NCBI GenBank assembly: GCA_018902385.1
Contig: JABSSW010000040.1
Coordinates: 310,001-374,000 of the forward strand
Length of the DNA stretch: 64,000 nt
Direction of reading: 5' to 3'
Source of the DNA: Physcia stellaris
Lineage: Eukaryota; Ascomycota; Lecanoromycetes; Caliciales; Physciaceae
Shown in pieces: positions 1,734 through 64,000 of the stretch; position 1 is the stretch's first letter, and every line of letters starts with the position of its first letter. The notes beneath the pieces were generated by a model. The model saw only the letters and a list, made by a program, of their open reading frames with translations. It searched no databases and was not told where the DNA came from. The position numbers were made by a program, and so were the translations under genes.

Positions 1734-2274
1734 CGAACTCCGAATTCATCAATTTGTATGCGATCAAAACTCCGCATTTCAATAATTCAATGCGCCCACG
1801 TCAGAATCCAACAAATGTTACAGCATTGAATTCCTCTCATTGAACTCTACAATTTTGACTAAACAGAAAAAAATCATATCAAGTTCTTGGTTGGTGTGCA
1901 ACGTGCGAAGAAGTTGCACCAAAACTTTGATGTTCTTCGCCAAGATTGGTCTAACCCGATAAGGTAGTAAACTTTTTGTAGAGGGAACGATAGATATTTT
2001 TTTATAGGGTGTGTTCTATAATTTTTCAAATTCAATGATTGAATTTTTGAAAAATTGTGTAAAAACAAATCATTTTTTGATTATTCAATTGTTAAAAACA
2101 TAAAAAAAATTTCTCGATAAAAAAAAAAAAATTTATTGAAAAATAATCATTTTCGAATCATGTGTTTTTCGCGTGATTTTGCTGATCAACGATGAATTAT
2201 CACGAATCATGTCACGATTATTTCACAACAAAAATAATATTCGATTCATTTGTGTTCGAAAATTCAATGTAAAC

Positions 2275-2326
2275 GAAAAAAAAAAAACGAAAAAGAAAAA
2301 CGAAAAGATTCAAAAGAAAAAAAAAG

Positions 2327-2371
<45 letters not shown>

Positions 2372-2376
2372 GACGC
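2275..2376. repeat. Long A-rich low-complexity tract
   Basis: About 100 bases almost wholly A with scattered G and C, ending in an uninterrupted A run at about 2333-2370. An open frame through it encodes only poly-lysine and is not a gene. It could be the remnant of a poly(A) tail or simply the end state of G-to-A and C-to-T mutation. Confidence 0.7.
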
Positions 2377-5300
2377 GAAAAAAACGATATTTCGCAACAA
2401 TTTGAAAAATTTTTATAAAATTCGAAAAAATTTCATATTTACAATTTGAAAACTTGTTAATCGATCGAGCGAAACAATCGATAATGATTCAATTGTAAAT
2501 TTCGAAATTATATTGTTGTATCATATAAAATTTCTCGTTTTTCGTAACGTTTTTGAAAAATTTCAAATTGTATAATGAATCGAAAATTGAAAAAATGATT
2601 ATACAATTCGTTATCAATTGCAAAAATTTTCACTCGTTTTATTTTCGAAATTTCAATTTTTTTCATTTTCATTTTTTGATTTTGAACAAAAATATTTTCG
2701 AAAATGAAATTAAATGAAAAAAAAATCGTTGTGCACATTGTTTATGTCATGAACGAATAATCAAAAAAATTTCGAAACAGTTAAAATTTTCATCAATTCA
2801 ATATAAATAACGCAATGCACAATTTAGAAATATCGAAAATTAAATGAAAAAAAACGTCAATAAATGTCAATCATACAATTTTTCAAACGTCATATCAAAT
2901 GTGATAAAAATTTTAAACGTCATGTTAAAATTGACAACGCAAAATGAATATTTTATGATCGCATAAATAACAAATAAATGAAATAAACAAAAACAAAAAT
3001 CGAAACGAACATAACAACGTTTGATTGAAATAACGCAACATGAACAATAAATAAAAATGAATTAATTTTCGATAACGTTTGTCGAAAAAAATCAATAAAC
3101 AAAAATTTCGAATAAAAAATAAAATATTGAATATTCATCAAGTTTTGATAATTTTAATCGAACAAATAAATAAAATCAAAATCATTTTTGAAAAAAAAAA
3201 CGAACGTTTTTTTTATTTTTTATTTTTTTTGTACATCGCGCAAACGCACGAATTCATTCGATTTAAAATTTTCGTATTTATTTTGTTTAATTATCGTGTC
3301 GTAAAATTTCACGATTCAAATGTTTTATAAATATTTGAATTCGACAGAATTTTTCAATCAATCGAAATAAATTTTTATACGAACGATCAAATTCAAATAT
3401 ATGATTACAAAAAAAATAAAATGAAAAATGTTTTCAAAAAAATGCGAATAATTTATTTTTCATAAAATTTATCATTTTCGAAAAACATTTGAATCAATCG
3501 ATCAATTTAAAAATAAATTGTCAATTATTTTCGATTATTTGAATAACGTGTTTGTTTCAAATATTCGCAAAAAAAATTTTAAACAATTTGAATTCGTTGA
3601 TGTTATCATAAATTTCGTCATTTTTTTTGTTCAACGAAATAACATTTTTTACATAATTTTAAATTCAAATAAATCAGCAAAAAAATCAACAATGAATTGA
3701 AAACATATATTTTAAATTTTTTCAAATGTTCATATTTTCAATTAATCATCAAATGTTTGTATTTGTTTTTGATTTTTCGATATGTTTCATCATTTTCGTT
3801 CATTTTTTCGAAAAAATTTTTTATTTCGTAATCAAAGTTTTCATGAATGTAATATCGAATCATGTTGTAACGATTGTTTCTTTTTAACTTGTTCACAAAT
3901 TAAGAAATTTTTTTTTTTGATTTTTTTTTCGTCGTTAATTGTTGTATCGCAATAAATTTTTTTCTTTTTCGTTTTTGAAAGAATGCATGATTTGACGTAA
4001 TGATGTTCGAACGATGAAAAAAACGAAAAAAAAACAAATTGTTTTTATTTCGTGCGATTTGCGCATTTCAAATTATTAATATAAATTATAACGAATGATT
4101 CGAAAAATATTCACATCGTTATTTGAAAAAAAATTCGTGATGTTATCACGATTCAATGTGAAATTGTCATCGTTTTTTTTTTGAAAAAATCATGTTTAAT
4201 TTAAACAAATGATTTAAAAATTATGTAAAAAAATTTAAACGACAAATTCGTAACAAAATATTGATCAATACAATGCACAAATGAATTTTGAAAATGAACA
4301 ATAATTGCTCGAAAAATGAAATCGAAACGAACGAAACGAAAAACTTTTGAATTTTCAATTGCGACTAAAATTCAATTCGTTTAAATTTTGACGATTATTT
4401 TCGCATCATAATTTTGCGTCATTTTTCAATTCAAATTTTTTTAATTTTTTCAATAAATTTCGTTTTTTATTATTTTTTAAAATATTTCGACAAATTTTTT
4501 TCGATTTGTTCGCAAAATCATGTTTTGATTTCTTATCATTTTTCGCAATTTTGCATTTAAACACATGCGTTCATTGATTTTGTTTTTTTATCAATTCGCA
4601 TTTTTAAAGTCAAATCGCGACATCAACGCATACATTTTCGCTTGTTTCAAATATTCAAATCGATGCGTTGAAAATTTTAAAATTCAAAATTTTTTTCGTT
4701 TGTCGTTAAATCGTCTGTTTATCGTATTGACGAAAAAACATTGCGATTTTCATTATTTTTTTCGAAAATTACAGCATTTTTGATTTCGAAATTTTGTTTC
4801 GAATTGAATTTCACGATTCGTCGTTTTTAGAATTGCGTTTTCAATTTGAATCATTTTTTTTTTCGATTTCAATGTTTGATGTTTTTTATTTTTATTTTTT
4901 TCAAAAACACAAACACGATTATTTTTCAATTCAAATTCAATATTGAAATTTTTTCTCGATATTTTTACAAAAACTTTAATTAAAATATCACGATTGACTC
5001 ATTCATATGTCGTAAAAATATGAAAGAATTCGTATGATTTGTTATTGAATCAAAATTCATGTTAAATTTTGTCATGATTTTGAATATACAATTACAATTA
5101 ACATTTTAACATTCAACAAAAATTTATATCTTGTCAGTTCGATTGTATCTTTATTGTTTATGATATGTTTTCACTTGAATTGAAAAATGAAAAATCTGAT
5201 GAAAAATTTTAAAAATGACAAAAAATCGTTAAAAAATTCGTGAAAAGAATTTAGAAAAAAAATGAATATACAAAAAAAGAATGAAAACGCAACGTTGAAA

Positions 5301-5694
5301 TAAATTATTTGTAAATTTCGTTTGTCGTGTTTATGACGCGATATTTTCGTGCAAGTCGTGAAACAATTCGAATTTTTGTTTTGTGTTTGAAACGATTTCA
5401 ACATTTGAACGTTTATTTCTATTAAGTTATCGTGATTTGTTGATGTCGTTTCTTTTTTGAAATCATTGTAAAATGTAATCAATTGTTCAAAAATACAACG
5501 TTATTTCGATTTTTTCAATTTCAATTTTTTTCGTAACGATTTTAATTGTCATTTTTAATTAACGCAATTTTTGTTTTGCATTAAAAACGCGAAATTCAAA
5601 ATTTTTCGTTCGTTATTAATATCGAAAATCATTTTCGTTTATCTCGAAATATTGTATTTGTGATGATTGAACGAAAATTGTTATAACACGCAAA

Positions 5695-8600
5695 ATGTTT
5701 CGAAACGCAATGTTTCATCGTCGTTTTGTTTTTAATTTTCAATTTTTCGCAAAATTTTCATCGAAAAACGAAAAAATTCAAAATAATGTGAAAAATGAAA
5801 TGTCATCAATTATTGTTTCAAAATTTGACAAATTCACAAATTTATTAAAAATCGAAAAAAATTTTAATATTGCAAATAACAATAAAAATCATGAAAAAAC
5901 GCGTTTGAACGACGAAAACATAAAAAAATTGTTTTCACGTTTTCGACAAAAAACGCATATATTAAAAAACGCAATGAATGTTGTTTCGAATCGCGAAAAT
6001 ATTAAAATTAACGATAAATTTAAAATGCGAACAAAATTTTTTCGATTTTTGCGACGATCATGAAATCAAAATTCGAAATTGCGAAAACATTTTTCAATTC
6101 GTCGCATCAACAAAATTTAAAAAAAATGTCGATTTTCGTTATTTCGAAAAATTTATTGTTTGTTCAATTTCAACAATTTGTGAATGTTTTGAAAAAATTA
6201 CAATTTAAAATCGTTAACGTATATGACGAAAAAAAAAATTTCGAAAATGATAAATTTTAATTCGATAACAAATATTTCGTTTACAATGTTTTTTTCGTCA
6301 TTTCGTCGCGCGTTCGTTTCTGATCGCGCGTTCGTTTTTGATATTTTTGAAACGTTATTTCATCAACGAATTGATTTGTTATTAAGCGATTTCGTTATGA
6401 TTTTCGCAATTTGAACGAAAACAACGAATTTTATTCGCGTCATTTACAATTTTTTTTTTGAAATTTTTCGATTGTTTTCAAATCTAAATATTTTAAACGA
6501 ATTATTTGAAATTTTTGACATTTTCAAAATTCGATTTCGCGTTCAATTTTTTTTATTATTTTTACGATTTCAGAAAATCAAAATTGAACGAAAACAACAA
6601 TTCAATCTGTCAATTACATTTCGTGAAAAATTCAAAAAAAACATTCGAAATTTGATTTTTTTTGATTTTATATTTCTGATGTCGCGTTTGTTTTTTTCGC
6701 AAATTTTTTCATCGAAACAACATCGTGATATGACAAAAATCGTTGATAAATTTACAAAATTTTATCATTTTCTCAATTGAAATTTTTTTATTCGTTTTAT
6801 TTTCGATGTTTTCGTTTTTTATTTCGATAAATTTTTCATTTTTTTTTCGAATTTTTTGAATTTTGAATTGAACGACATTTTGCGTTTAAATCGTTTGACA
6901 TTTGTGAACAAAAACATACGAAATTCGATTGCGATTAAAAACAAAATGACGATATATGTTCAAAAAATAATTCAAATCAAAAATTGACAAAATTTTTGAA
7001 CAATCTTTGCGAATGACACGACGTTTAATGACATTTTGTTTGAAACAAATGAATTGTTATTGTTCGAAAATCGAATTCATTACATTTTTGAAAAACATGT
7101 TCGTCGTTGAAAAAATGATGTTTACAATAATTGAATTTTCGACGATTTCAATGAAAATTTTTATTTTTTTGACATGTTCAAAAAACGCTATTTTGTTAAA
7201 AAAATTCTCAATGTTGATCAGCAAAAAATTCGAATTTTTAATTTATTCGCATTAATTCGAAATAAATTAAAAATCGAAACATTTGATCGTCAATATTTTA
7301 CAATAATTTTTTTTTCATCGCAAAACAAATATGATTGAAATAATTGATCAATTCGCACGAAAATATGTGTCGATGTCATTTTTTATGTTTTTCGACGAAT
7401 TTGAATTTTTTAAAAACATTTATCGATCGATAATGAACGTTTACATTATTTTAACAATTTTGAATTATCGAAAACGCAATCGACGCGCGAATTGTTTGAT
7501 TTTGATTTTGAAATTTCACGAAATCAAATTCGTTGATGTTGTCGAAATTTTTATCGAAATTTTCGCAAAATTTGACAAAAATTTGTTGATGAATATTCAA
7601 AAAAAAAAAATTGTGTACGTTTACATTAAAATTTTCATAAAAAATATGTTTCAACAATATCACAACAAAAAATTCATGATTTTTGCGATCATTTATGATT
7701 GCAATTTTTGTTTCATAATTTTCAAAAAACGCGCAAATTTGAATTTTGATATTTATTTTCGAAAACGTTATTATTTTTCGATTTTGAATTATCGCGAAAA
7801 AATTGATCGTCGTAATGCGATCGCAACGATCAAAAAAAAAATTTTTAACGTCGTTGACATGTTTGAATATTAAACGTCGTTCATTCAATTTATTTTTGTT
7901 TTTGATATCATACGTTTTCGATCAACGAATATGATTCATTTTGAATTTCGCGATTTGAATAAAATGACGCAAAAATTATTATTCACAATTATTTTATTCG
8001 AAAAATTTCAATTCGTTTATTTTTTCGAATTTCAAATTTTTTTTTTTTTCATGATTCAAAATACAATTTTCAAAAAAACATTTAAAAATATGATCAATGT
8101 CGAAAACGAATTGCGTCATCATAATTATTTTTGTATTATTGCGATGTTGATTTCGAAAAAAACATTTTGATACACGATATCGACGAACAACATAACGCGT
8201 ATTTTTTCATGATATGATTGAACACAACATTACGATAATTGACGTTATTGTCAAATGTTATGTTTGTTTCGTTGAAAATAATGTTATTATTATCGCATTC
8301 GTTATTCGTGTTCGAATAAATACAATTATATTCGAAACACGCTCGATTATACAAAAATTATTCGAAATAACGCAACAAACAAAATCGACATTAACGATCA
8401 AAAATTTTTCGCGCAATCGAATCACATCGATAAATTCAATAATTAATGTAATTATTGATCATCGTAATAAATCGAATAATATAAAAAACGATTTTAAAAC
8501 AAAATTTGTCGAAAACGATTTGTTGCGAAAAAATTGAAATGATAAAAATATCAACAAACAAATACAATTTTTTCAAAAATTTAAAAAGCGATTTAATATG

Positions 8601-9164
8601 CATGTGAAATTGCATTATGAAAATGTAATGAAAAAATTCGTTTTTTCAAATAATTGTGACATTTTTTTTGATGAAAATAAACATCGATATGTTCATTTTC
8701 AAAAAAATTGATTGTTTTAATTATTGTAATTTTTTTAAAAACATAACGTCGTATATCAACGTTGTTAATGTCGAAATCACGTTCATGATTCGTAAAAATT
8801 TTCAACAAATTATTCGTTTCGTTTTTATCAACGTTTTCGTCGACATTGAAATTTTTTGATTATTCAATTACAAAAATTTGAAAAAAAATGTTTCGAATTG
8901 ATGCGAATTATTTTATCAATTTTTGAACAACGTTTGACGATCGAATCAAAAATTATTATCACAATTATGAACGAAAATAATCAAATTCGCGTTTTGATAT
9001 TTGAAAAAATAAAATCAACATTTGTTCAAAACATTTTGAAATTATTCATTTTTACGCGTTTTTTCGAAATATTGAATTTCTTTTCATTTAAATTACGCAA
9101 AATTTACGAAATTAATTACGAAAAAATCAATTCAACACGATTTGATATTAATATTTTGCGATAA
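5695..9164 (+). mobile_element. Degraded DNA-transposon transposase, Plavaka/CACTA (Tnp2-like) type
   Basis: Plus-strand fragments in this stretch follow in order the layout I know from large fungal Tnp2-like transposases. About 6472-6780 ends in an IVDKFTKFYHF-like segment (family: IVD-PTEFYHS). About 7331-7873 has YRS-MNVYIIL-LN, RKRNRRAN, a DVVE helix, a V-VYIKIFIKNMFQQ segment (family: V-AFTM-F-GDMPQQ), C-FC, and ANLNFDI-F--RYY (family: RGNLDYDI--RGRYH). About 7931-8170 has an HFEFRDLNKMTQKLLF segment (family: HSE-RGL-K), and about 8593-8860 a basic RFNMH-LHYE segment (family: RPN-H--LHY). Pro, Ala and Thr positions of the family are largely replaced by Leu, Phe, Ile and Met, as C-to-T change predicts. 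The gene is dead, with many interruptions. No terminal inverted repeats were found. The family match is by memory. Confidence 0.55.
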
Positions 9165-9436
9165 TATTTGAAAATCTCGTTCACAAACAAATAAAAAATG
9201 ATTTTATTTTGCAATTTTCATTTTTTTTCATTCGAAGAAAAATTGAAATCATTTTCGAATCAATGATTATTTGAACATTGTTGTTAACGTATCAATAAAT
9301 TTTTTCAAAAACGTTTTATTTTCAAAATTGAAAATTTCATTCGTTGTCGCATTTACGATTTTTGTCAAATCGATCGCATTTTTGTTCACGAATTTCGTTC
9401 GAAACAACGACGAACTTTTTTGATGATAATTGTAAT

Positions 9437-9462
9437 GAAAAAAAAAAAAAAAAAAAAAAAAC
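9437..9462. repeat. Poly-A run
   Basis: About 26 consecutive A within the AT-rich block, just downstream of the transposase relic. It is probably an expansion of mutated sequence; no function is implied. Confidence 0.6.
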
Positions 9463-11646
9463 GAATTCGATTTTTCGCATGTTTTTGATGCATTTTTTCG
9501 ATATTCAATTGATTGTGAAATTTTCAAACGTAATGATTCAAAACATTTGAATATTATTCGTGAAACGAAAAAACAATCGTTTTGAAAAAAAATTACAATT
9601 TCAAAAAAACACATTTTTGTTACGTTGTTTCTGAAATATTCGTTTTTTATAATAATTATTCAATACGAATTTTAAAAAACAATATACAACGAAACATTGT
9701 CGATGATCGCAAAAAAATGTGTTTAATAACAAATAAAAAATCGACAATTGTCAATTTTCATTTTAATTGTGAAAACATTAATTAAATAAAATTGCTATTT
9801 ATAGTAAAAATTTATTTTCAAAATATTTTATTTTGTATTTTTCGATTGATTTTCGTCGTGATAACGTGATTCGTTAAAAACACGTGATTTTTTTTTCGCA
9901 TTTTTTCGACATTTTTTTTTTCGTTCGTTCGAATTTATCGTTTTCATTTTCGTTTTTGCGATGTATTTTCATTTCATTTTTAAATCAAATTTTTGAAATC
10001 ATTGTTTTTGTTTTCATTATCGTCAATTTTTTCAAAAAATTTCGTTGAACAATTTTGAAATTCAATAAATGCATCGTTGTCGTTTCAAAATGATCGCAAT
10101 ATTTAATTTTAAAATTTTTTCATTTATGTTTTTCATTTTTCGCAATTTTGTCATTTTTGCGAAAAATACACAACGAGTTTTGAAACATTACACATTTTTT
10201 TCGTTAAAACGAATTTTTTAATTAATTTCACGAATTATTTAATTGAACATGTCGTTATTGTCGTTACAAACGAATTTGATTTTTCAATTTGTTTTTATTT
10301 ATTTTTTTGACATGTCATTGTTAATTGTATTTTTTCAAATTTTCAATTCACAATTTACGTTATTTTGAACACACGTTTTTGTTCAAAAACAATTAACATG
10401 TTTTTTCATTTTTTTATCAACATCACAAATTATACGAAAATTGTTTTTGCATTTTAAATTTGTTATTTCATGAAAAAATTTGTGTGTATAATTATATTCG
10501 TCAAATTGAATTATGAAAGTTGTTTTCGTATGAATATACACATCATGATTCATATTCATGTTATACACAATTTTTTATACGTTTTTTACGTTTTTGTTTT
10601 GAACACGTTTTCGTCTGTTTTGATATCATGATTTTTATGACATATTGAATGAAAAATTTTAAAATTGCAAAAATTGATTGTGAAAAAAATTTGAAAAAAA
10701 AATGAAAATAGCGAACGACACATCGACAATTCGCGAAAAAAACGTTTCGATAAAATGTTGAATTCGATATGTTTTTCGAAATGTTTGTGTTTGCGCATGA
10801 AATTTAAAAAAAATTCGATATTGCATTTGATTTCGAATATATTTCAAAAAATAATTGTGTTGCGCAATATTGATTTTGAATTTTTGATAATTCGAAATGA
10901 AATGAAAATTGTATATATCGAAAATCGTTGACATTGATTTTAGATTTATTCGCAATATTTAATGTTGACATTTTTCGTTCATTTTACATTTTGTAATGTT
11001 TGTTCGTTCAACGTTCAATTGCTATTTTGTTTTTGAATTTATTTCGATTTCAACATTTGAAATTGAAAAAACGAAATGATTCGCAATTTGTTTTTGCGAA
11101 AATTGTTTTTTAATCGATTATAACGTTATTTTCATTTTTTTTTTTTCATAAATCGTTCAAATTGTCGCGATGAACATAGCAAATGAAATTGCGTATGTCA
11201 ATTAACAATTATCAATACGTTTTCATGATTTAAAATTGAAATTAAAAAAATCAAAAATTTGAAAAAATTTGAACGAATGCGAAATACACAAACAAATTTT
11301 TATTGTTTTGTCAAAATGTTTTTTGAATCAAAACAATTGTTTTCAAATTTGCAATTCAACAAAAACAATTTTGTGAATAAAATGAAAAATGAATTTTCGA
11401 ATTTTTTTGAATTTCAAATTTTAATATATCGAGCGTCGATTTTTTTCAATGTTTATACATTTTTGAAATAATTTTTGTTTTTTTCGTTTCAATCATTCAA
11501 ATTACAATTAATTTGTTCAACATTTTCGATGCGTTTTATTATATTTGAAATTAAAATGATCAATGAAAAAACAAATACGAATTTCACACATATTCGAATT
11601 TTTCAATTTCAATTGTTCATTGTCACATTGAAATTTTGTTTTCGAT

Positions 11647-11682
11647 AAAATATGATTTGAAATTTCGATCAAATCATATTTT
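11647..11682. repeat. Perfect 14-bp inverted repeat, 8-base loop
   Basis: The arm aaaatatgatttga (11647-11660) is exactly complementary to 11669-11682, separated by aatttcga. It is one of three perfect hairpins with 12-14 bp arms clustered between 11.6 and 12.9 kb, near the right end of the AT-rich block. It could be a sub-terminal structure of a dead DNA transposon. Confidence 0.7.
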
Positions 11683-12118
11683 GTGATGTAAAAATCGAAA
11701 TTATGAAAATTCGAAACGTGAAATGATTTTTTTTTTTGAAATGTTTTTTTTTTTTTTCAATTCATTCGATGTCGTTTCGATATCGATTTCAATTTTAATT
11801 TCATCAATTGTCAAATTTTTTACGATACATTTTTCGTTTCGAACAATCAAAATTGTTTGAAAATTTCAATTCAATCATTTTCAAGAATTTAAATCTGATC
11901 AATTTGCAAATTTTGAATTTACAATTTTTGAATTTCATATTTTTGAATTGCACGTTTGTTTGTCGCAAATTCGAATTTTTCGCGAATATATCAATTTTTA
12001 CAAAATAATTTTTACACAATCATTTCATTTTCAATAATTTCGAAATTTCAACGTTTTTTTTCATGAAATATGTGAAAAATTTTTTTTCGTTGAACTTTGC
12101 AATTTTTTTTTTATAACA

Positions 12119-12240
12119 AATTTTCGTCTGCGACAAATTTTCGTTTAAAACACATTTTTTTACGACAAATTTTTTTACGACACATTTCTCTTTGCGACAA
12201 ATTTTTTTTTACGATAAATTTTCTTTTACGACGTATTTTA
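12119..12240. repeat. Degenerate tandem repeat, about 20-30 bp units
   Basis: A motif close to ttttacgacaaat recurs about seven times (forms include tgcgacaaattttcg, acgacaaatttttt, acgacacattt, tgcgacaaatttt and acgataaattttc) with unit spacing of roughly 20-30 bases. The array is only visible because the units kept the acgac core. Sub-terminal tandem repeats are common in large CACTA-like transposons, which fits the transposase relic upstream, but the link is an inference. Confidence 0.6.
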
Positions 12241-12483
12241 TCAATGCGTATCAGTCATGACAATTCAACAAACAACGAAAAATTGTCTGTTTGATGTAAC
12301 AAAATGTATTAATAAAAACGACGAGATAAACGACAATATGTAATCAATGAAATTCAATCTTTTTTATTTTGATTGTTCACGATTGATATCAGAACATGAT
12401 TCGATTATTTCAAAACGACTTTTGATTATTGTGATTCAATTTAATCATAATTCAATGATTGTTGATTTAAAAAATCATACGAA

Positions 12484-12515
12484 ATATCAAAATTATTACA
12501 AGATAATTTTGATAT
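12484..12515. repeat. Perfect 13-bp inverted repeat, 6-base loop
   Basis: atatcaaaattat (12484-12496) pairs exactly with 12503-12515 around the loop tacaag. Confidence 0.7.
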
Positions 12516-12814
12516 CATTGTTTGATTTTTATATTGTTACGTTCAAATCATTGCAAAATAATGTGATTTGTTTTTTGATTGACAAAATTCTATCATTCGT
12601 TAATTCTTGATTATCAATAATTCAATGCAAAATTTAATCATTTTAAATTGCTGTGTTTTCGCATATTTTTTTTAATACATTATGATTGTATAGCGATTGA
12701 GTTGAACATATGATTGAATTGCGTCAATTAATTTTCGTTCATTTTTTGCGTTAAATTATTTTTGACATGAAATAATGTCATTGTCATATTTTTGATTGTA
12801 ACTATAGATTTGAT

Positions 12815-12844
12815 TCAATGATTAAAATTCAATTTAATCATTGA
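12815..12844. repeat. Perfect 12-bp inverted repeat, 6-base loop
   Basis: tcaatgattaaa (12815-12826) pairs exactly with 12833-12844. It lies at the extreme right edge of the AT-rich block, about 25 bases before base composition turns normal. Confidence 0.65.
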
Positions 12845-12914
12845 TGTATTCAAATATTGATCAAAGTCAATGTTTGCAACTGCATTCTGCAAATTTCAAT
12901 GATAGGTTTCAGGC

Positions 12915-13550
12915 TGCTAATCTATAATAATCCTAGGATGATTTCCTAGGACCCCCTCCGCCCGCTAAGGTAGCCTGGGTTGCCTTATCTGCCGCTACCA
13001 CTAATTTTAACCTCTCCACAGGTTAACTGCTTGTTTTTTCAACTCTTGACTACCTCTCCATTTTTACACATAACATGCGACTCTTCTCTACAATAGGCTC
13101 AAGTATCCATATCGCTTCTCAAGATCGAATTTCCTATCTAAGTAGACATCCAGCAATCCCAAAGCAGGGAGGCAAACAAATGTGGAGAGGACGATACGAC
13201 GGGCGGCACATTCAACTAAGTGATATCAGAGCCTTGATCTCATGACCGTCTCGCGTCCAACGCTTTTTTACGATTTTTCTCCCATCTGATCACGGCGTCG
13301 TTGTCACTATTGTTGTGTCTCTTTCGCTTTGCGCGTCTTTTCCGTCTCTACCTCCTTTCCTGCTAGTAATACTCCTGTCAGTGGGACTTCGAATAAGTGC
13401 TCCAATTCACGGCTTTTCGCCGCTTTTCGGCTTTTAATACGTTTTACGCCTTTGATGATTTGGTTGTTCGATGAGGTTGAGCTCTTGTACTACTCAATCA
13501 GTTTACATTTCGAGTCTCTAGCTATATGACGCTCTGACGAGTTGAGGAGA
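12915..13550 (+). mobile_element. Copia-type LTR retrotransposon fossil, 5' end only
   Basis: A GC-normal stretch starts at about 12915 with a TGCTAATC-type edge, carries a pyrimidine-rich tccgcccgctaagg segment, and ends at about 13215. It is followed by tgatatcagagcc at about 13221-13233, which resembles the initiator-tRNA primer site (TGGTATCAGAGC) of Copia elements. The parts are a probable 5' LTR of about 300 bp, a primer-binding site, and a short piece of leader/gag-side sequence up to about 13550. The element is broken: no pol and no second LTR are seen here. It has escaped the base change seen immediately to its left, so it looks younger than, or outside the reach of, that process. 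Family assignment rests on the primer site only. Confidence 0.4.
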
Positions 13551-53695: not shown

Positions 53696-54052
53696 ACTAG
53701 TACTTAATTCCTTAATCGAGAGAAGCGTTGATGAAACATTGACTGGTGTCAAGTGAAGGATATTAATATTATGTGGTACAGCGCCTAGGAAGTCGAACGT
53801 GCTGTCGGTCTTAGATTTCCATCGGAAACTCTGATGTTCTGTAACGCTAGTGAGAGTTTCATTACAATTCGCCTGCCGAGGCGAGCGAGGCTAGAAATGG
53901 ACACGAACTACAATAATGGCAATGTTTGCTTCACCTTCATTCGCGTTGGCACTGGATGCTAAATGGACGATTTGTAGGTGGTGTCTTACTGCTCCAGCTG
54001 CCGGCTTGACATCCTGAAATGTTCAAAAATAAAGAGGGACCAAAACTCAAAA

Positions 54053-54135
54053 TGGACGTAATGGGATTTGAACCCATGACCTTTCACAAATGCATACAAT
54101 GCGAAGCGAAAATCATACCCCTAGACCATACGCCC
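54053..54135 (-). tRNA. tRNA-Ala (anticodon CGC) with short intron
   Basis: On the minus strand the acceptor stem GGGCGTA (54135-54129) pairs fully with TACGTCC, including the G3:U70 pair that identifies alanine tRNAs, followed by discriminator A at 54053. The D-arm is GTC...GAT, the anticodon stem TTCGC/GTGAA (one G:U), and the T-arm ATGGG-TTCAAAT-CCCAT, perfect. The anticodon loop is TTCGCA...T with about 11 extra bases after position 37, the standard intron position. The anticodon CGC reads GCG codons. A T-run follows as terminator. Confidence 0.9.
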
Positions 54136-54259
54136 AATGATTGGACGTTATAAAATTATCCGTTATTAATAATTATTAACACCTGATAGCCACGTACAGC
54201 ATCCCTCACTCGAATTACACATCAACTCCTAAAAGTACGAGTTAGACTGACTTGAGATA

Positions 54260-55081
54260 CCTTAACGGAAGGCGATGGTTCATTTTTACCGTAGGGTTGC
54301 GGTTATTTTAGGGTTGTTAAATAGTCACGTAACCAAAAAGCTTGGCTGTCTAAAGGCGAGGACAACTCTGTAACGTTTTCCTCGTGTCACCGTAAAAAAA
54401 TCAAAAACGTTCACACATGTTGACGGTGTTTTTGATATGTCACGTATTCGATATATAACGTTGCAAATGTCAATGACGTTTCATGATATTGAACGTGTCA
54501 GCTGTAATTTAAAATACCAAAGTCCAAAACGATATACCAGGGTCCAAACCAATGCGCGCATCGGCATGCATCGGGCGCATCGCAAGTCAATCACAATGCG
54601 CAACACCAACGCCACGCACTCACTAGGTCTGAGTAGCGCTCTCGCGTAAACTTTGCCTGAATCGCTTGATTCTGATGTTCAAATTCACAAAGCGTGGATG
54701 TTCGTACAATCACAGTGTACTCGAGCTGTAGGCTTGGCAAGCTTGGCGTAACTGAACGGTTATTTGACGATTACTGACACGAAACGGTTATTTGACGGTT
54801 ATTGCTGTGAAACAGATATTGCACGATTTTTGAAACTATACGTAACGCTTTTAGTACAATTTTATTTGAATAACGAACATGCTATATAACGTTTTATATT
54901 TAATTACGTTGATTGATTTTTACTCTAATTTTACAATTACATTTCAAAAACGATCAGAATTCGAAAACGTCTCAGAAAAGTTAACGTAATTTCAAAAGTA
55001 CGCTAAAAAACCGCCCTTGGGCGGTTATTTATCGATTACGATAACTCTACGGTAAAAATAGACCATAGCCTTCCGTTAAGG
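54260..55081. mobile_element. 822-bp TA-flanked MITE (non-autonomous DNA transposon)
   Basis: The ends are inverted repeats. 54260-54298 reads CCTTAACGGAAGGC, one mismatch, ATGGT, two mismatches, ATTTTTACCGTAG, one mismatch, GTT against the complement of 55043-55081, 35 of 39 positions identical. Both ends are flanked by TA (54258-54259 and 55082-55083), the target of Tc1/mariner-type transposases. The interior encodes nothing. It holds two direct copies of aacggttatttgacg about 28 bases apart (about 54754 and 54783) and a perfect aaccgccc-tt-gggcggtt hairpin at 55009-55026. It sits 124 bases beside the tRNA-Ala gene. The TIR sequence is not one I can name. Confidence 0.85.
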
Positions 55082-55083
55082 TA

Positions 55084-56484
55084 TTCAAGTGTCCTGTTAC
55101 ATTCTATAAAAGACTGAAAGTCAAGCCGAAAGGAAATTGAACAAAGAATACTCCAGGTTTGTAATTTCGTGGAAGGCTACTTACTAACTTACACCATTGA
55201 TAGCTTTCATCATACGAATCGGTCCATGAGTCTATCATCTGTTCATTTCTCATAGCTGGATCTATGATTATGACATCTTGATGGTTACCTCAAGGGATCA
55301 TATGCTCCCTCGTAACGTCGACCTCTCACGGCTCGGTCCACTGTACACGTGCTTATTATCTCTTGAAGCTATCCAGCGGAGTCCATAAGAACACCCGCAG
55401 CCTTGATCAGGGTTGTCCTGAGAGTTTTCCAGGGTGCATATCTTCTTAAGGATGTCAGTCTGTTCGGGTGAGCATTGAGTGAGACTCATCGTTCCAGCAT
55501 ATGTCCTCAAGGAACCACTTGGGTTGAGCATGTTCTGAAGGAATATTTTTTATCTTTCCACTCCTGATCAGCTGTACAATTAGCTGGCTGTCGGAACAAA
55601 ACTTCGAGTCTTTTCCGGGAACAAAGCTCTGAAGCAAAACAGTTGATGGCCTCAGTGGAGAGTGGGACGATATCAGGTTTCTTTTCTTCCTCATCATTGC
55701 TCGTCAATGCGCAATGCTTTTGTATAGCGTCCGTTATCTACATGGTCCCTCACCTTAGTTGTTAAAGATAGCAGTGGTGTCCCTGGAAGAGCTATCGTCG
55801 GACGCCGCGGTGATACGGATCTTCGAAACTGTTCCTGCGACATCACCTCGACGGGCTAATGCACCCTGCATTGCACCATGCACCTCGACAGCTCTCGAAC
55901 GGATCGGTGACGCAGGCTCTGTAAAGCGTCTCTATCAACCGTGAGTATAGCTCCACTGCAAGACTGTTTTGCCGAACGAATTCTTGAAATTATCATCAGC
56001 GTCGAGGTGAACATGCTGTTGGTCTGTCTAATTGGAGCTGTCAGGTTCACTTCATGGTTCTATTTTAAAGGATTGGACTGCACTATATCCTCGGTGTCTT
56101 TAAGACAACTTGTAATTCAATATGCATTACAAAGAAAAGATTCGAAAAGCATTCGCTATCTACTTCTCTTCAATATCTTAAAATTCACTCAAGTAGAGAG
56201 ACATTCGGCCTCCTACGCTACCAGTCACCTGACGGTAAGATAGCGGAAACCTAGCCATGGCTACTACATGTGTCCTTAGTGATTGAATTCAAGTCAAGGG
56301 AGGTGCGCTTCGTCCACGCAATAAGTCCAAGAGCAGACTCCTCGGATCAGATCAGGAAGGCGCCACTGAAACCATACCCAATGACAAGACATCTCTCGTC
56401 CAAACCCAAGAGATGCTCCCCCATCTTTACATCTTTTCAAACAGCACTATCATACTTATCAATTAAGCTAAAGAAGACAAAGAC
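55084..56484. other. 1.4-kb stretch between the MITE and the acidic protein gene
   Basis: Two overlapping minus-strand frames (55298-55707) contain protein-like text (DIVPLSTEAINCFASELC; SPEQTDILKKICTLEN), but no splice arrangement joins them convincingly and I recognise no domain. The plus-strand frames at 55759-56243 are also unrecognised. The rest is the promoter and leader of the gene that starts at 56485. Confidence 0.35.
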
Positions 56485-58194
56485 ATGGAAGACACACCAT
56501 ACTACCACTATCATTCACAAGAAGAGCTCGATGGACCCAGAGAGTGTTCCAAAGAAGAAGAAAAAGAGTCGGTACTTGTTAAAGAGGAGGAGGAGAAAAT
56601 CTCGGCCAAATCTGCCAGCAAACGAAGAATATCTTGTAGCGAAGATCCAGATTATAGCATCGATGTGTCAGCTTATCCGGATACCGATCCATCGCCCATT
56701 GTACAAAACATTCCCAAGGCCGAAGAAGCCTCGACTGACTCTTCCCAACACAAATCATCAAGCCCGCCGTCTTCCATGAAAGGGGACGACGACCTGTCAT
56801 CGATCGAACATCATGATAAACAAGTACAAGACAGTAACAAATGGGAGGATAGTCGTTTAAGTTCCAACAACAACATAGTTGAACAAGCTGATCCATCCGA
56901 GTGGACACCTAAGTTGCCGCCGACTAAGGTTCGCCCTACCACACCCTGGAGCACGTTTAGGCCTTCCCCTCTAGGCCAAAGTCCAATGAACGCTTCGGAA
57001 CTTGAAAGTCCTCGGTTACCAGCAAAGGCTCTCCTACCAAAAGAGCCATTGAAGAGCAAAAAGAAGAGGATAAGCCAGATGAGTGAAGATCTATCTGATT
57101 TTGGGGGTGATGGTCATTCAGAGGATTCCGGTCATGCTTCAGTCGAGCGGGGTCGGACATCAAAGAGGAGGTCAAGTCGAGGAGACGCTGAGATCGATGA
57201 AGATGAAACGACGGTGGACGCCAGTGTAGGAGATATCATTTCTCATACAGTACCTTTCCAGCATGAGTTGCCTCCAACTTCTCAATCTTATGGAGAAGGT
57301 GTTAGCAGATTGGTGAGAAGGACGTCTTGGGAAGTAGGGAATGAAGAGAATTCTGCAATAGACCGGCTATTGCTATCCGCCGAGGACTCTGACCGAGAAT
57401 CGCAACGATCATCAAGTCCACTCACGCAAGATCGCAAACGTAAATCATCCTCCTCTCCACCGTCACCGCCCTCTCCAAAACGTTCACGAACATCAACCCC
57501 GATAATTCAGGTCTCCGAAGAACGCCTCCCACTTCTTTTTGTGCTCCTGTCGCCAGACAGGTTCCTCCAACATCGTCACGTCGTCATTTCACTCCCTACC
57601 TCGTGGTATGAATTTCGCCAAATGACAATTCAGGTCTTTGCTCGCGGATCATGCGGTCCAGATATTCCTACCGAGATTTCGGATCAAGCAAAATTCATAA
57701 TGAGATGGAATAAGCTCAGGGGTCATGCGCACTGGACAACATTCCCTGGTGAGACTGAGCTTTGCGGCGACAACATCAATGCTGTGCTCCAGTGGACGCT
57801 TCATAATAGCTCGTACGACTTCTGTGAGATCCAAAACGAGCAGGAGACTGGAGCTGTCCCGAGCAAAGATTCTATCTCGGCCAAGTCCGGTATCAGTCAG
57901 GATAAGATGAATAGCATCGAAACAGTCGCTGAGACGGCACTAGGCTATGGTGGCGAGGGTGAAAAGGTCGGCAATGAACAGGCCCGGACGGTCAGCCGAA
58001 GGGCTAAGTCTAGCCAGAGTGAGTGTTTCAGATCAGAGAATATCGGACGAGGCCAGGAAGCCGAAAAAGAGATCGAGAATGCAAGGCCCACTAAGGCAAC
58101 GAAATCCAACACTGTATTGCACAGACCTCAGGTTGAGTTGGCCAGTGACCCGCAGGAGGATGTCGAGGATATGTCGGAGAACGAGGAAAGCTGA
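56485..58194 (+). CDS. Large acidic, mostly disordered protein of unknown function
   Basis: A single exon of 569 residues from ATG 56485 (MEDTPYYHYHSQEELDG). Residues 1-340 are disordered, dominated by Ser, Glu, Asp, Lys and Pro, with several basic patches (KSKKKRISQ, RGRTSKRRSSRG, KRKSSSSPPSPPSPKRSR) that look nuclear. About residues 345-460 form the only folded-looking part: LPLLFVLLSPDRFLQHRHVV, ISLPTSWYEFRQMTIQVF, FIMRWNKLRGHAHWTTF and INAVLQWTLHNSSYDFCEI, alternating strands and helices. The tail is again charged, ending DMSENEES. I know no family for the central block. Intact length and lack of introns argue for a real gene, possibly lineage-specific. Confidence 0.75.
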   Translation: MEDTPYYHYHSQEELDGPRECSKEEEKESVLVKEEEEKISAKSASKRRISCSEDPDYSIDVSAYPDTDPSPIVQNIPKAEEASTDSSQHKSSSPPSSMKGDDDLSSIEHHDKQVQDSNKWEDSRLSSNNNIVEQADPSEWTPKLPPTKVRPTTPWSTFRPSPLGQSPMNASELESPRLPAKALLPKEPLKSKKKRISQMSEDLSDFGGDGHSEDSGHASVERGRTSKRRSSRGDAEIDEDETTVDASVGDIISHTVPFQHELPPTSQSYGEGVSRLVRRTSWEVGNEENSAIDRLLLSAEDSDRESQRSSSPLTQDRKRKSSSSPPSPPSPKRSRTSTPIIQVSEERLPLLFVLLSPDRFLQHRHVVISLPTSWYEFRQMTIQVFARGSCGPDIPTEISDQAKFIMRWNKLRGHAHWTTFPGETELCGDNINAVLQWTLHNSSYDFCEIQNEQETGAVPSKDSISAKSGISQDKMNSIETVAETALGYGGEGEKVGNEQARTVSRRAKSSQSECFRSENIGRGQEAEKEIENARPTKATKSNTVLHRPQVELASDPQEDVEDMSENEES

Positions 58195-63209: not shown

Positions 63210-64000
63210 CCCCCCCTCGAACCGGGTTCGAGTAAAGTCTACTGACGAAAATGAATTTATCACTCAAAATTGATGTGAATCTCATTTTACGCTGTAAAAC
63301 ATTCCAATATTCAATGTAATGATTTAAAATCGAAAAAATTCAACATGCTATGACAACAATACAACGCTTTTGAATTTAATTCATGCTCAACATTTGAATA
63401 AAACAACGAAACTTGATAAAAATCAGAATTTTGATAAATTCGTCGACAAACATGTTTTGAATAAAAATGTAATGTAAACGAATTCGATTAGTTTTGATTT
63501 CGTTTCGAATGTAATGATAAACGATATCGACGTGTTTGATGCGATCATGATAAATTGAATTTTCGACGAAAATTTTGACATTTTGATTATCGATATGTAT
63601 TTGTAAAATAACGTATTTGTCACGTTGATGATAAATGTGTAAATCGACGAACAAATTTCGAAATCATGTGATTTTTTTAATAATCGTCGAAATGATTATA
63701 TATTTTGCAACGCATGTGAAAGTGATCACGATAAATTGAAATTTTGACATTCAATTTATTGATTTTTCATTGAGAATGAAAACGTAAACGTCAATTGATT
63801 TTTTAATGATCAAATCGTTATCGTAATTGACGTCACAATAGTTTTGTAAATCAAAATTTTTTTTTTCGTAAACGATATTTAAACGATCAATGATATTGAA
63901 ATAATCGAAAATATCGTTTGCGACGTTCATGTGAATTTTGCTTGAATTTTGAACGAAACGATTGACGATGAAAATGACGTTAAAAACATTTGATTTGATT
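63091..64000 (-). mobile_element. Copia retrotransposon fossil, 3' part, interior heavily AT-mutated
   Basis: Minus-strand text at 63654-63376 matches the end of the Copia RNase H domain: IDNQNVKIFVENSIYHDRIKHVDI, then YHYIRNEI and MFVDEFIK-L (family: DNQ-AI-LAENP-YHARTKHIDI, YH-IRE, ADGLTKPL). The parts seen are RNase H, the purine tract and the 3' LTR; the element continues past the window end. It is broken. The interior shows the same CpT/CpC depletion as the block at 2-12.9 kb (63661-64000: one CpT, three ApG, no CpC or GpG in 340 bases), so it was probably mutated by the same process. It looks old, apart from the LTR. Confidence 0.7.

Follow-up and report, generated by a model that had tools for sequence, protein, structure and literature searches.

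What kind of mutation takes cytosine away almost wherever a pyrimidine follows and leaves it in place before a purine? The question is raised by an AT-rich block at positions 1980-12870 of a 64,000-nucleotide stretch of the ascomycete Physcia stellaris (GenBank assembly GCA_018902385.1, contig JABSSW010000040.1, positions 310,001 to 374,000 of the forward strand), which we call the window. Positions without a prefix are those of the window; others carry the handle of their contig, C40 being the window's own. The block is probably a dead copy of a transposable element, hypermutated by a C-to-T process that resembles repeat-induced point mutation (RIP). Both strands are hit, nearly to saturation, and targets are taken in the order CpC, then CpT, then far behind them CpA and CpG; this CpY spectrum (Y, pyrimidine) was observed by direct comparison of copies in three unrelated repeat families. 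A repeat-directed CpY mutator is very likely at work in this genome.

The block (10.9 kb) has a G+C content of 0.23, i.e. 77 per cent A+T. It contains no CC, four GG, 54 CT, and 48 AG dinucleotides, along with 654 CA, 639 TG, and 535 CG (CG observed/expected 3.8). CpT and ApG stand at about one-tenth of expectation, while CpA and CpG are kept. Between 2010 and 12870 the four depleted dinucleotides (CpY and RpG) number ninety-eight, compared with 1232 ± 23 expected from 500 base shuffles (minimum 1159), and chance or low complexity is rejected by these shuffles and by the copy alignments below. TpA, which CpA-directed RIP should generate, is itself low (observed/expected 0.40). Every dinucleotide count in the original prediction was reproduced: seventeen CpA, thirteen CpG, one CpT, twenty TpA, and no CpC, ApG, or GpG at 4021-4320; no CpT, ApG, CpC, or GpG at 6001-6300; and five CpT and seven ApG in a coding comparison at 57001-57060. 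Its limits for the block are also sound. The damage sets in at about 2018, at the end of a younger inserted element, and fades at about 12,870, roughly 100 bases inside the right end of the damaged element at 12,972.

The signature recurs elsewhere in the genome. A 5-kb stretch at C29:24300-29299 lacks CpC, ApG, and GpG altogether and keeps just one CpT. We also examined 233 one-kilobase bins from the window and twenty other stretches, picked non-randomly for similarity to the block, as window flanks, or as arbitrary contig starts (C40:373001-374000 was counted twice). CpY made up at most 0.29 of all C in each of the ninety-nine bins with G+C below 0.30 and at least 0.43 in each of the 108 bins with G+C of 0.44 or more. 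Stop triplets on the two strands of the block comprise 18 TAG, 590 TAA, and 673 TGA, so TAG is scarce as predicted. The companion claim that chance frames would run long held only in part: the mean open run is 17 codons in the block versus 24.7 codons in 14000-54000. It is only against random DNA of equal composition (about 11 codons, an arithmetic estimate from base counts) that open runs in the block are long.

A 2.8-kb piece of the block has two full-length relatives in the genome, at 94 and 90 per cent identity, alignable over about 10 kb. Complete copies of this 11.4-kb terminal-inverted-repeat element lie at C24:147615-159064, C44:138808-152658, and C40:309138-322972; the last is the window's copy, with its left end upstream of the window. 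The genome contains exactly six occurrences of the 21-base terminal repeat, one at each end of these three copies, and the right inverted repeat of the window's copy (12952-12972) is the reverse complement of TACCTTAGCGGGCGGAGGGGG. Dinucleotide counts and copy alignments place the CpY-mutated interior of that copy at 2018-12880, followed at 12881-12972 by a terminal stretch with the right inverted repeat, the outer 50 bases of which appear unmutated. The CpY share of all C is 0.48-0.62 just outside the ends of the C40 copy and 0.79 in its outer 50 bases; at 50-100 bases in it falls to 0.26 on the left and 0.44 on the right, and at 100-400 bases in it is no more than 0.18. All six ends keep the G+C-rich terminal repeat intact despite its being repeated; it may lie too near the edge of homology, or it may be protected. 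No Pfam family matched above cut-off in ten stop-to-stop frames of the window's copy, nor in nine frames of the least mutated copy read with TGA as tryptophan.

The three copies form a series, with C24 the least mutated, C44 intermediate, and the window's copy the most mutated. Between C24 and the window's copy, C-to-T changes have affected 46/46 CpC, 711/768 CpT, 145/1325 CpA, and 22/1063 CpG sites, alongside sixty-seven T-to-C changes and sixty-four transversions. The same order holds for each step of the series, from C24 to C44 (CpC 43/44, CpT 511/767, CpA 63/1330, CpG 17/1065) and from C44 to the window's copy (CpC 3/3, CpT 381/413, CpA 126/1296, CpG 20/1057). In this family the 5' base is nearly neutral (ACY 94 per cent, CCY 93 per cent [13/14], GCY 93 per cent, TCY 92 per cent). 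The CpA changes vary with the next base, at 18 per cent for CAT and 14 per cent for CAC versus 7 per cent for CAA and 5 per cent for CAG. There is a late, weak CpA component, mostly at CAT and CAC.

Unmutated copies were available for comparison in two further families. One is an element with reverse transcriptase (RT) and RNase H domains, which we take to be of the Ty3/gypsy type. Two copies of normal composition are 96 per cent alike, and thirty-eight more are listed at 71-82 per cent identity (40 of 191 candidates were scored). Six copies were compared with an unmutated one: its unmutated partner on C5, and five mutated copies from these thirty-eight; these five, and three older relatives of the younger element treated below, were picked by hand to span the identity range. 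Changes at CpC, CpT, CpA, and CpG, respectively, were 177/213, 106/230, 4/210, and 3/234 in copy C95; 193/215, 122/231, 5/210, and 3/233 in C51; 206/220, 170/236, 4/211, and 3/234 in C2; 201/220, 177/232, 10/210, and 3/234 in C34; and 213/219, 215/234, 26/211, and 11/234 in C3. The ranges are 83-97 per cent for CpC, 46-92 per cent for CpT, 2-12 per cent for CpA, and 1-5 per cent for CpG. C-to-T changes far exceed all others, with 290 in C95 versus seven T-to-C changes and four transversions, and with 290-465 per 1.7 kb across the five copies versus 11-27 other differences (a ratio of 17 to 26).

The third family is that of the younger element itself, which is nested in both the C40 and C44 copies of the 11.4-kb element. 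Three older relatives, read elsewhere in the genome, bear CpY damage when compared with it. The counts for CpC, CpT, CpA, and CpG were 162/165, 198/218, 23/264, and 11/193 in C92; 163/168, 114/217, 10/264, and 8/196 in C21; and 157/181, 157/226, 28/269, and 31/198 in C122, so that 4-10 per cent of CpA and 4-16 per cent of CpG were changed.

Pooled over these eight mutated copies, changes amount to 1472/1601 CpC, 1259/1824 CpT, 110/1849 CpA, and 73/1756 CpG. CpT exceeds CpA (P < 1e-30), and CpC exceeds CpT in all eight copies (P ≤ 0.013), with the proviso that copies sharing ancestry are not independent in these per-copy statistics. Hazard ratios range from 1.4 to 4.7 for CpC:CpT and from 11 to 67 for CpT:CpA. 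At intermediate damage GCT is slower than the other NCT triplets (0.35 vs 0.51-0.58). Other substitutions are scarce in most copies. Saturation is graded among the copies, which is consistent with repeated rounds of mutation. The original prediction had proposed a RIP-like loss of cytosine wherever a pyrimidine follows, almost complete and affecting both strands, and had suggested tabulating C-to-T changes by the following base between degraded and less-changed copies; carried out in three families, that comparison came out as foreseen. It also refines the claim, in that CpC goes before CpT and a late, weak CpA part follows. Neither a loss of CpA with a gain of TpA nor a lack of preference for a following pyrimidine appeared in any copy or stretch read, a check that covers those copies and stretches and not genome-wide dinucleotide counts.

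The effect on coding sequence is equally specific. Across the five mutated gypsy copies, TGA has replaced TGG at every one of the four tryptophan codons of the frame. Of the twenty-one glutamine codons (CAA/CAG), four copies have lost none to a stop and the fifth has lost one. RT matches across the genome (150 of 527 candidates scored) contain 250 TGA, 33 TAA, and 3 TAG; stops occur in 140 of the 150 matches, and ten have none. DDE_1 matches contain forty-four TGA, three TAA, and no TAG, with stops in nine of ten. A CpA-directed RIP would be expected to yield many TAA and TAG codons, and we reject classical CpA RIP on these stop-codon types and on the C-to-T spectrum (CpA 110/1849). With nonsense codons nearly all at tryptophan, dead elements look almost open under a code that reads TGA as tryptophan, and this could mislead gene finders.

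How does this compare with known mutators of fungal repeats, of which RIP is, to our knowledge, the strongest? RID-dependent RIP in Neurospora crassa shares with the process described here heavy two-strand C-to-T mutation of repeats, near saturation, a 3'-base context, an onset within about 100 bases of element ends, and RID-like genes. As in RIP, C-to-T changes occur on both strands with other changes rare, a RID homologue is present, and mutation is limited to repeats with unique flanks spared, as seen at either end of the window's element and for the mutated copies in the three families. The preferred target is different. Classical Neurospora RIP prefers CpA, leaving TpA-rich and CpA-poor DNA, whereas here CpA is spared, CpC goes first and CpT next, and TpA is depleted. 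The 3' base does vary between fungi, and CpT is a possible target: CpT is secondary in Neurospora, Podospora variants use CpA and CpT, and other ascomycetes use CpA and CpG. No RIP variant known to us puts CpC first and all but excludes CpA. The CpG mutation of the Microbotryum type in basidiomycetes likewise turns C to T in transposons, but in our copies CpG is the best or second-best preserved dinucleotide; CpG-directed mutation is rejected by the pooled count (73/1756 changed) and by the excess of CpG in the block. Set against the forms of RIP known to us, this is a real and strong RIP-like process with an inverted target preference.

The usual RIP indices are built on CpA preference. The block gives a product index of 0.44, a substrate index of 1.51, and a composite of -1.07; the corresponding values for 14000-54000 are 0.72, 1.27, and -0.55. 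By the usual thresholds the block scores as un-RIPped, and these indices read it as undamaged although CpC is wholly gone. If our reading is true, genomes with a CpY system, which leaves CpA and TpA untouched, will score as free of RIP by the usual indices, and such systems may be commoner than thought.

The original prediction had also called for a methyltransferase search, and RID-like genes are indeed present. Searching the genome with PF00145 gave four matches in three genes, on C3, C5, and C6 (4 of 4 candidates scored). Two of these genes, at C5:498855-499792 and C6:791557-792528, have PF00145 with the PCQ and E-T motifs and, judging from the motifs described for that family in the literature, appear to be diverged members of RID/Masc1. 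They have EQT (C5) and EET (C6) in place of ENV, and their PCQ, E-T, QRR/QNRRR, and GNAVPP motifs are intact. The E-Q-T/E-E-T replacement, the intact PCQ, and an N-terminal domain and intron position common to both genes are as in the Masc1/RID family, which differs from the present case in that here two diverged paralogues share one genome. The two are 40 per cent identical (70/174) over the catalytic part and 34 per cent (50/149) over the N-terminal domain, and the shared intron position was judged by eye. Two TGA codons were flagged in the C6 gene, one explained by the intron at the shared position and the other in an apparent second intron. Among solved structures the two proteins match general cytosine methyltransferases only. 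The third gene lies on C3 in a long open frame. DUF7893 and PF00145 both score above cut-off in it and BAH reaches 19 bits (cut-off 30.8); it carries the ENV motif and scores 608.6 bits to the solved structure 9bap_A, a cytosine-5 methyltransferase. A BAH region and PF00145 with ENV mark the DIM-2 enzymes; this gene, with BAH below its cut-off, is DIM-2-like and may be one of them. The combination of RID-like and DIM-2-like genes would fit a filamentous ascomycete.

We suggest that DNA homology between copies would be the trigger, with the sexual phase as its probable setting, by analogy with RIP. The chemistry would be performed by one of the two RID/Masc1-like methyltransferases, for which the preferred base following the target C would have moved from A to C or T. 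That a RID-type enzyme is the agent is somewhat favoured in our judgement. Dependence on the 3' base with little effect of the 5' base is what a RID-type cytosine methyltransferase would give, and a 5' effect this weak (slower GCT aside) is in keeping with recognition on the 3' side. A fuller version, to which we would give slightly less than even weight, is that the 3' recognition of a RID-family enzyme shifted from a purine (A) to a pyrimidine, with C preferred to T, giving a RIP system of inverted target preference, and that the paralogues may divide the work between the main CpY and the late CAY components. The unmutated and graded copies and the small number of suspect genes (two RID-like, one DIM-2-like) make the residues that govern target choice directly testable.

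The C3 gene could be the agent instead, making the CpY mutations through heterochromatin. Neurospora DIM-2 can drive a second, RID-independent branch of RIP, and the domains of the C3 gene and its match to 9bap_A suit such a role, but DIM-2-mediated mutation concentrates in unique DNA between and beside repeats. Here the damage is even inside the repeat and fades within about 100 bases of its ends, which separates the two candidates only indirectly; we regard a DIM-2-like agent as unlikely. Far less probable again is an AID/APOBEC-like or other DNA cytosine deaminase that edits single-stranded transposon DNA. Known deaminases take their context from the 5' base, and a 5'-context enzyme is disfavoured because the yield by 5' base is nearly even apart from slower GCT, whereas the 3' base (T vs A) shifts the hazard 11- to 67-fold. 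Something that a processive single-strand deaminase could leave is found in the sister gypsy copies C95:25737-27465 and C51:5403-7134, which share 276 mutated sites. Their main difference is a 270-base tract (reference positions 587-858) with twenty-eight extra CpY changes on one strand in C51. This tract suggests that single events act on one of the two strands, though mosaicism through gene conversion may also account for it, and it is expected equally of a methyltransferase working strand by strand. A search for the NAD1 deaminase family, the only deaminase family searched, was empty and is uninformative, as its controls were silent too.

Might no dedicated mutator be needed? Non-CpG methylation occurs in fungi, and 5-methylcytosine at CpY in silenced repeats could deaminate spontaneously over time, leaving damage graded among copies as observed (CpT 46 to 92 per cent). 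Against this, C-to-T changes outnumber other gypsy differences 17 to 26 times, and the near-total loss of CpY over the 5 kb of C29:24300-29299 could hardly be reached by slow decay alongside other mutation. We give it scarcely more weight than the deaminase. That the pattern is an artefact of low-complexity AT-rich DNA or of base-calling error has a negligible probability. The block is 77 per cent A+T, as such an artefact would have it, but its depleted dinucleotides fall far below those of the shuffles, alignments spanning 10 kb between copies from separate contigs show C-to-T differences concentrated in a single context, and protein-coding relics show TGG-to-TGA at tryptophan codons.

Several observations weigh against a RIP-like CpY mutator. 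The younger element has twenty-two listed places at 92-100 per cent identity, including the window's own (40 of 97 candidates scored), and its copies appear unmutated; a base-level reading of two of them found both to be so. Its C44 copy, 98.7 per cent identical, has no excess of CpY change. The gypsy copies at C12:59899-61699 and C5:1166108-1167906, which are 96 per cent alike, bear little or no CpY damage (from C12 to C5, CpC 15/237, CpT 9/243, CpA 3/220, CpG 6/240). CpA is partly changed in the most damaged copies (9-12 per cent), its excess over CpG is significant in just two of the eight copies, and C122 is more diverged: in addition to 374 C-to-T changes it carries 117 substitutions of other kinds, and its CpG change is the highest (31/198). 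The link between damage and repeated DNA was examined in the three families. Finally, homology triggering and the link to the sexual cycle are what we infer, as is the acting enzyme, a DIM-2-like gene being present as well. As for the unmutated repeats, the process may now be inactive on them, they may have spread after its last activity, or they may evade it. RIP is confined to the sexual phase, acting on new duplications in a cross, before meiosis, and if the same is true here, such repeats would fit a long asexual stretch. Also relevant to the minimum repeat length and identity that RIP needs are the outer 50 bases of the window's element, which look unmutated, and the young repeats of about 2 kb at 92-99 per cent identity, which appear so too.

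Positions 1-2017 hold the right-hand part of the younger repeat, an unmutated sequence of about 2.5 kb that starts at C40:309541 and lies within the mutated element as an insertion. No Pfam family matched its two long frames. Its left end bears a short TTAGGGTTAGGG stretch, and at about 400-510 it contains a short in-frame tandem repeat, one frame of which gives runs like EAFGEAFG. To the right of the mutated element, a gene-rich flank (12973-53999) has normal dinucleotides and the mutation does not spill over into it; the CpY share of all C is 0.50 in the first 1000 bases beyond the element and 0.62 in the first 200. The signature returns in another saturated block, which occupies 63250-64000 and extends to about C40:378,500. 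Between the two, 54000-55250 is partly AT-rich with a milder loss of CpY (CpY/CpR 0.65) and a higher TpA/ApT of 0.93, and is possibly an old, eroded target or a stretch with a separate history.

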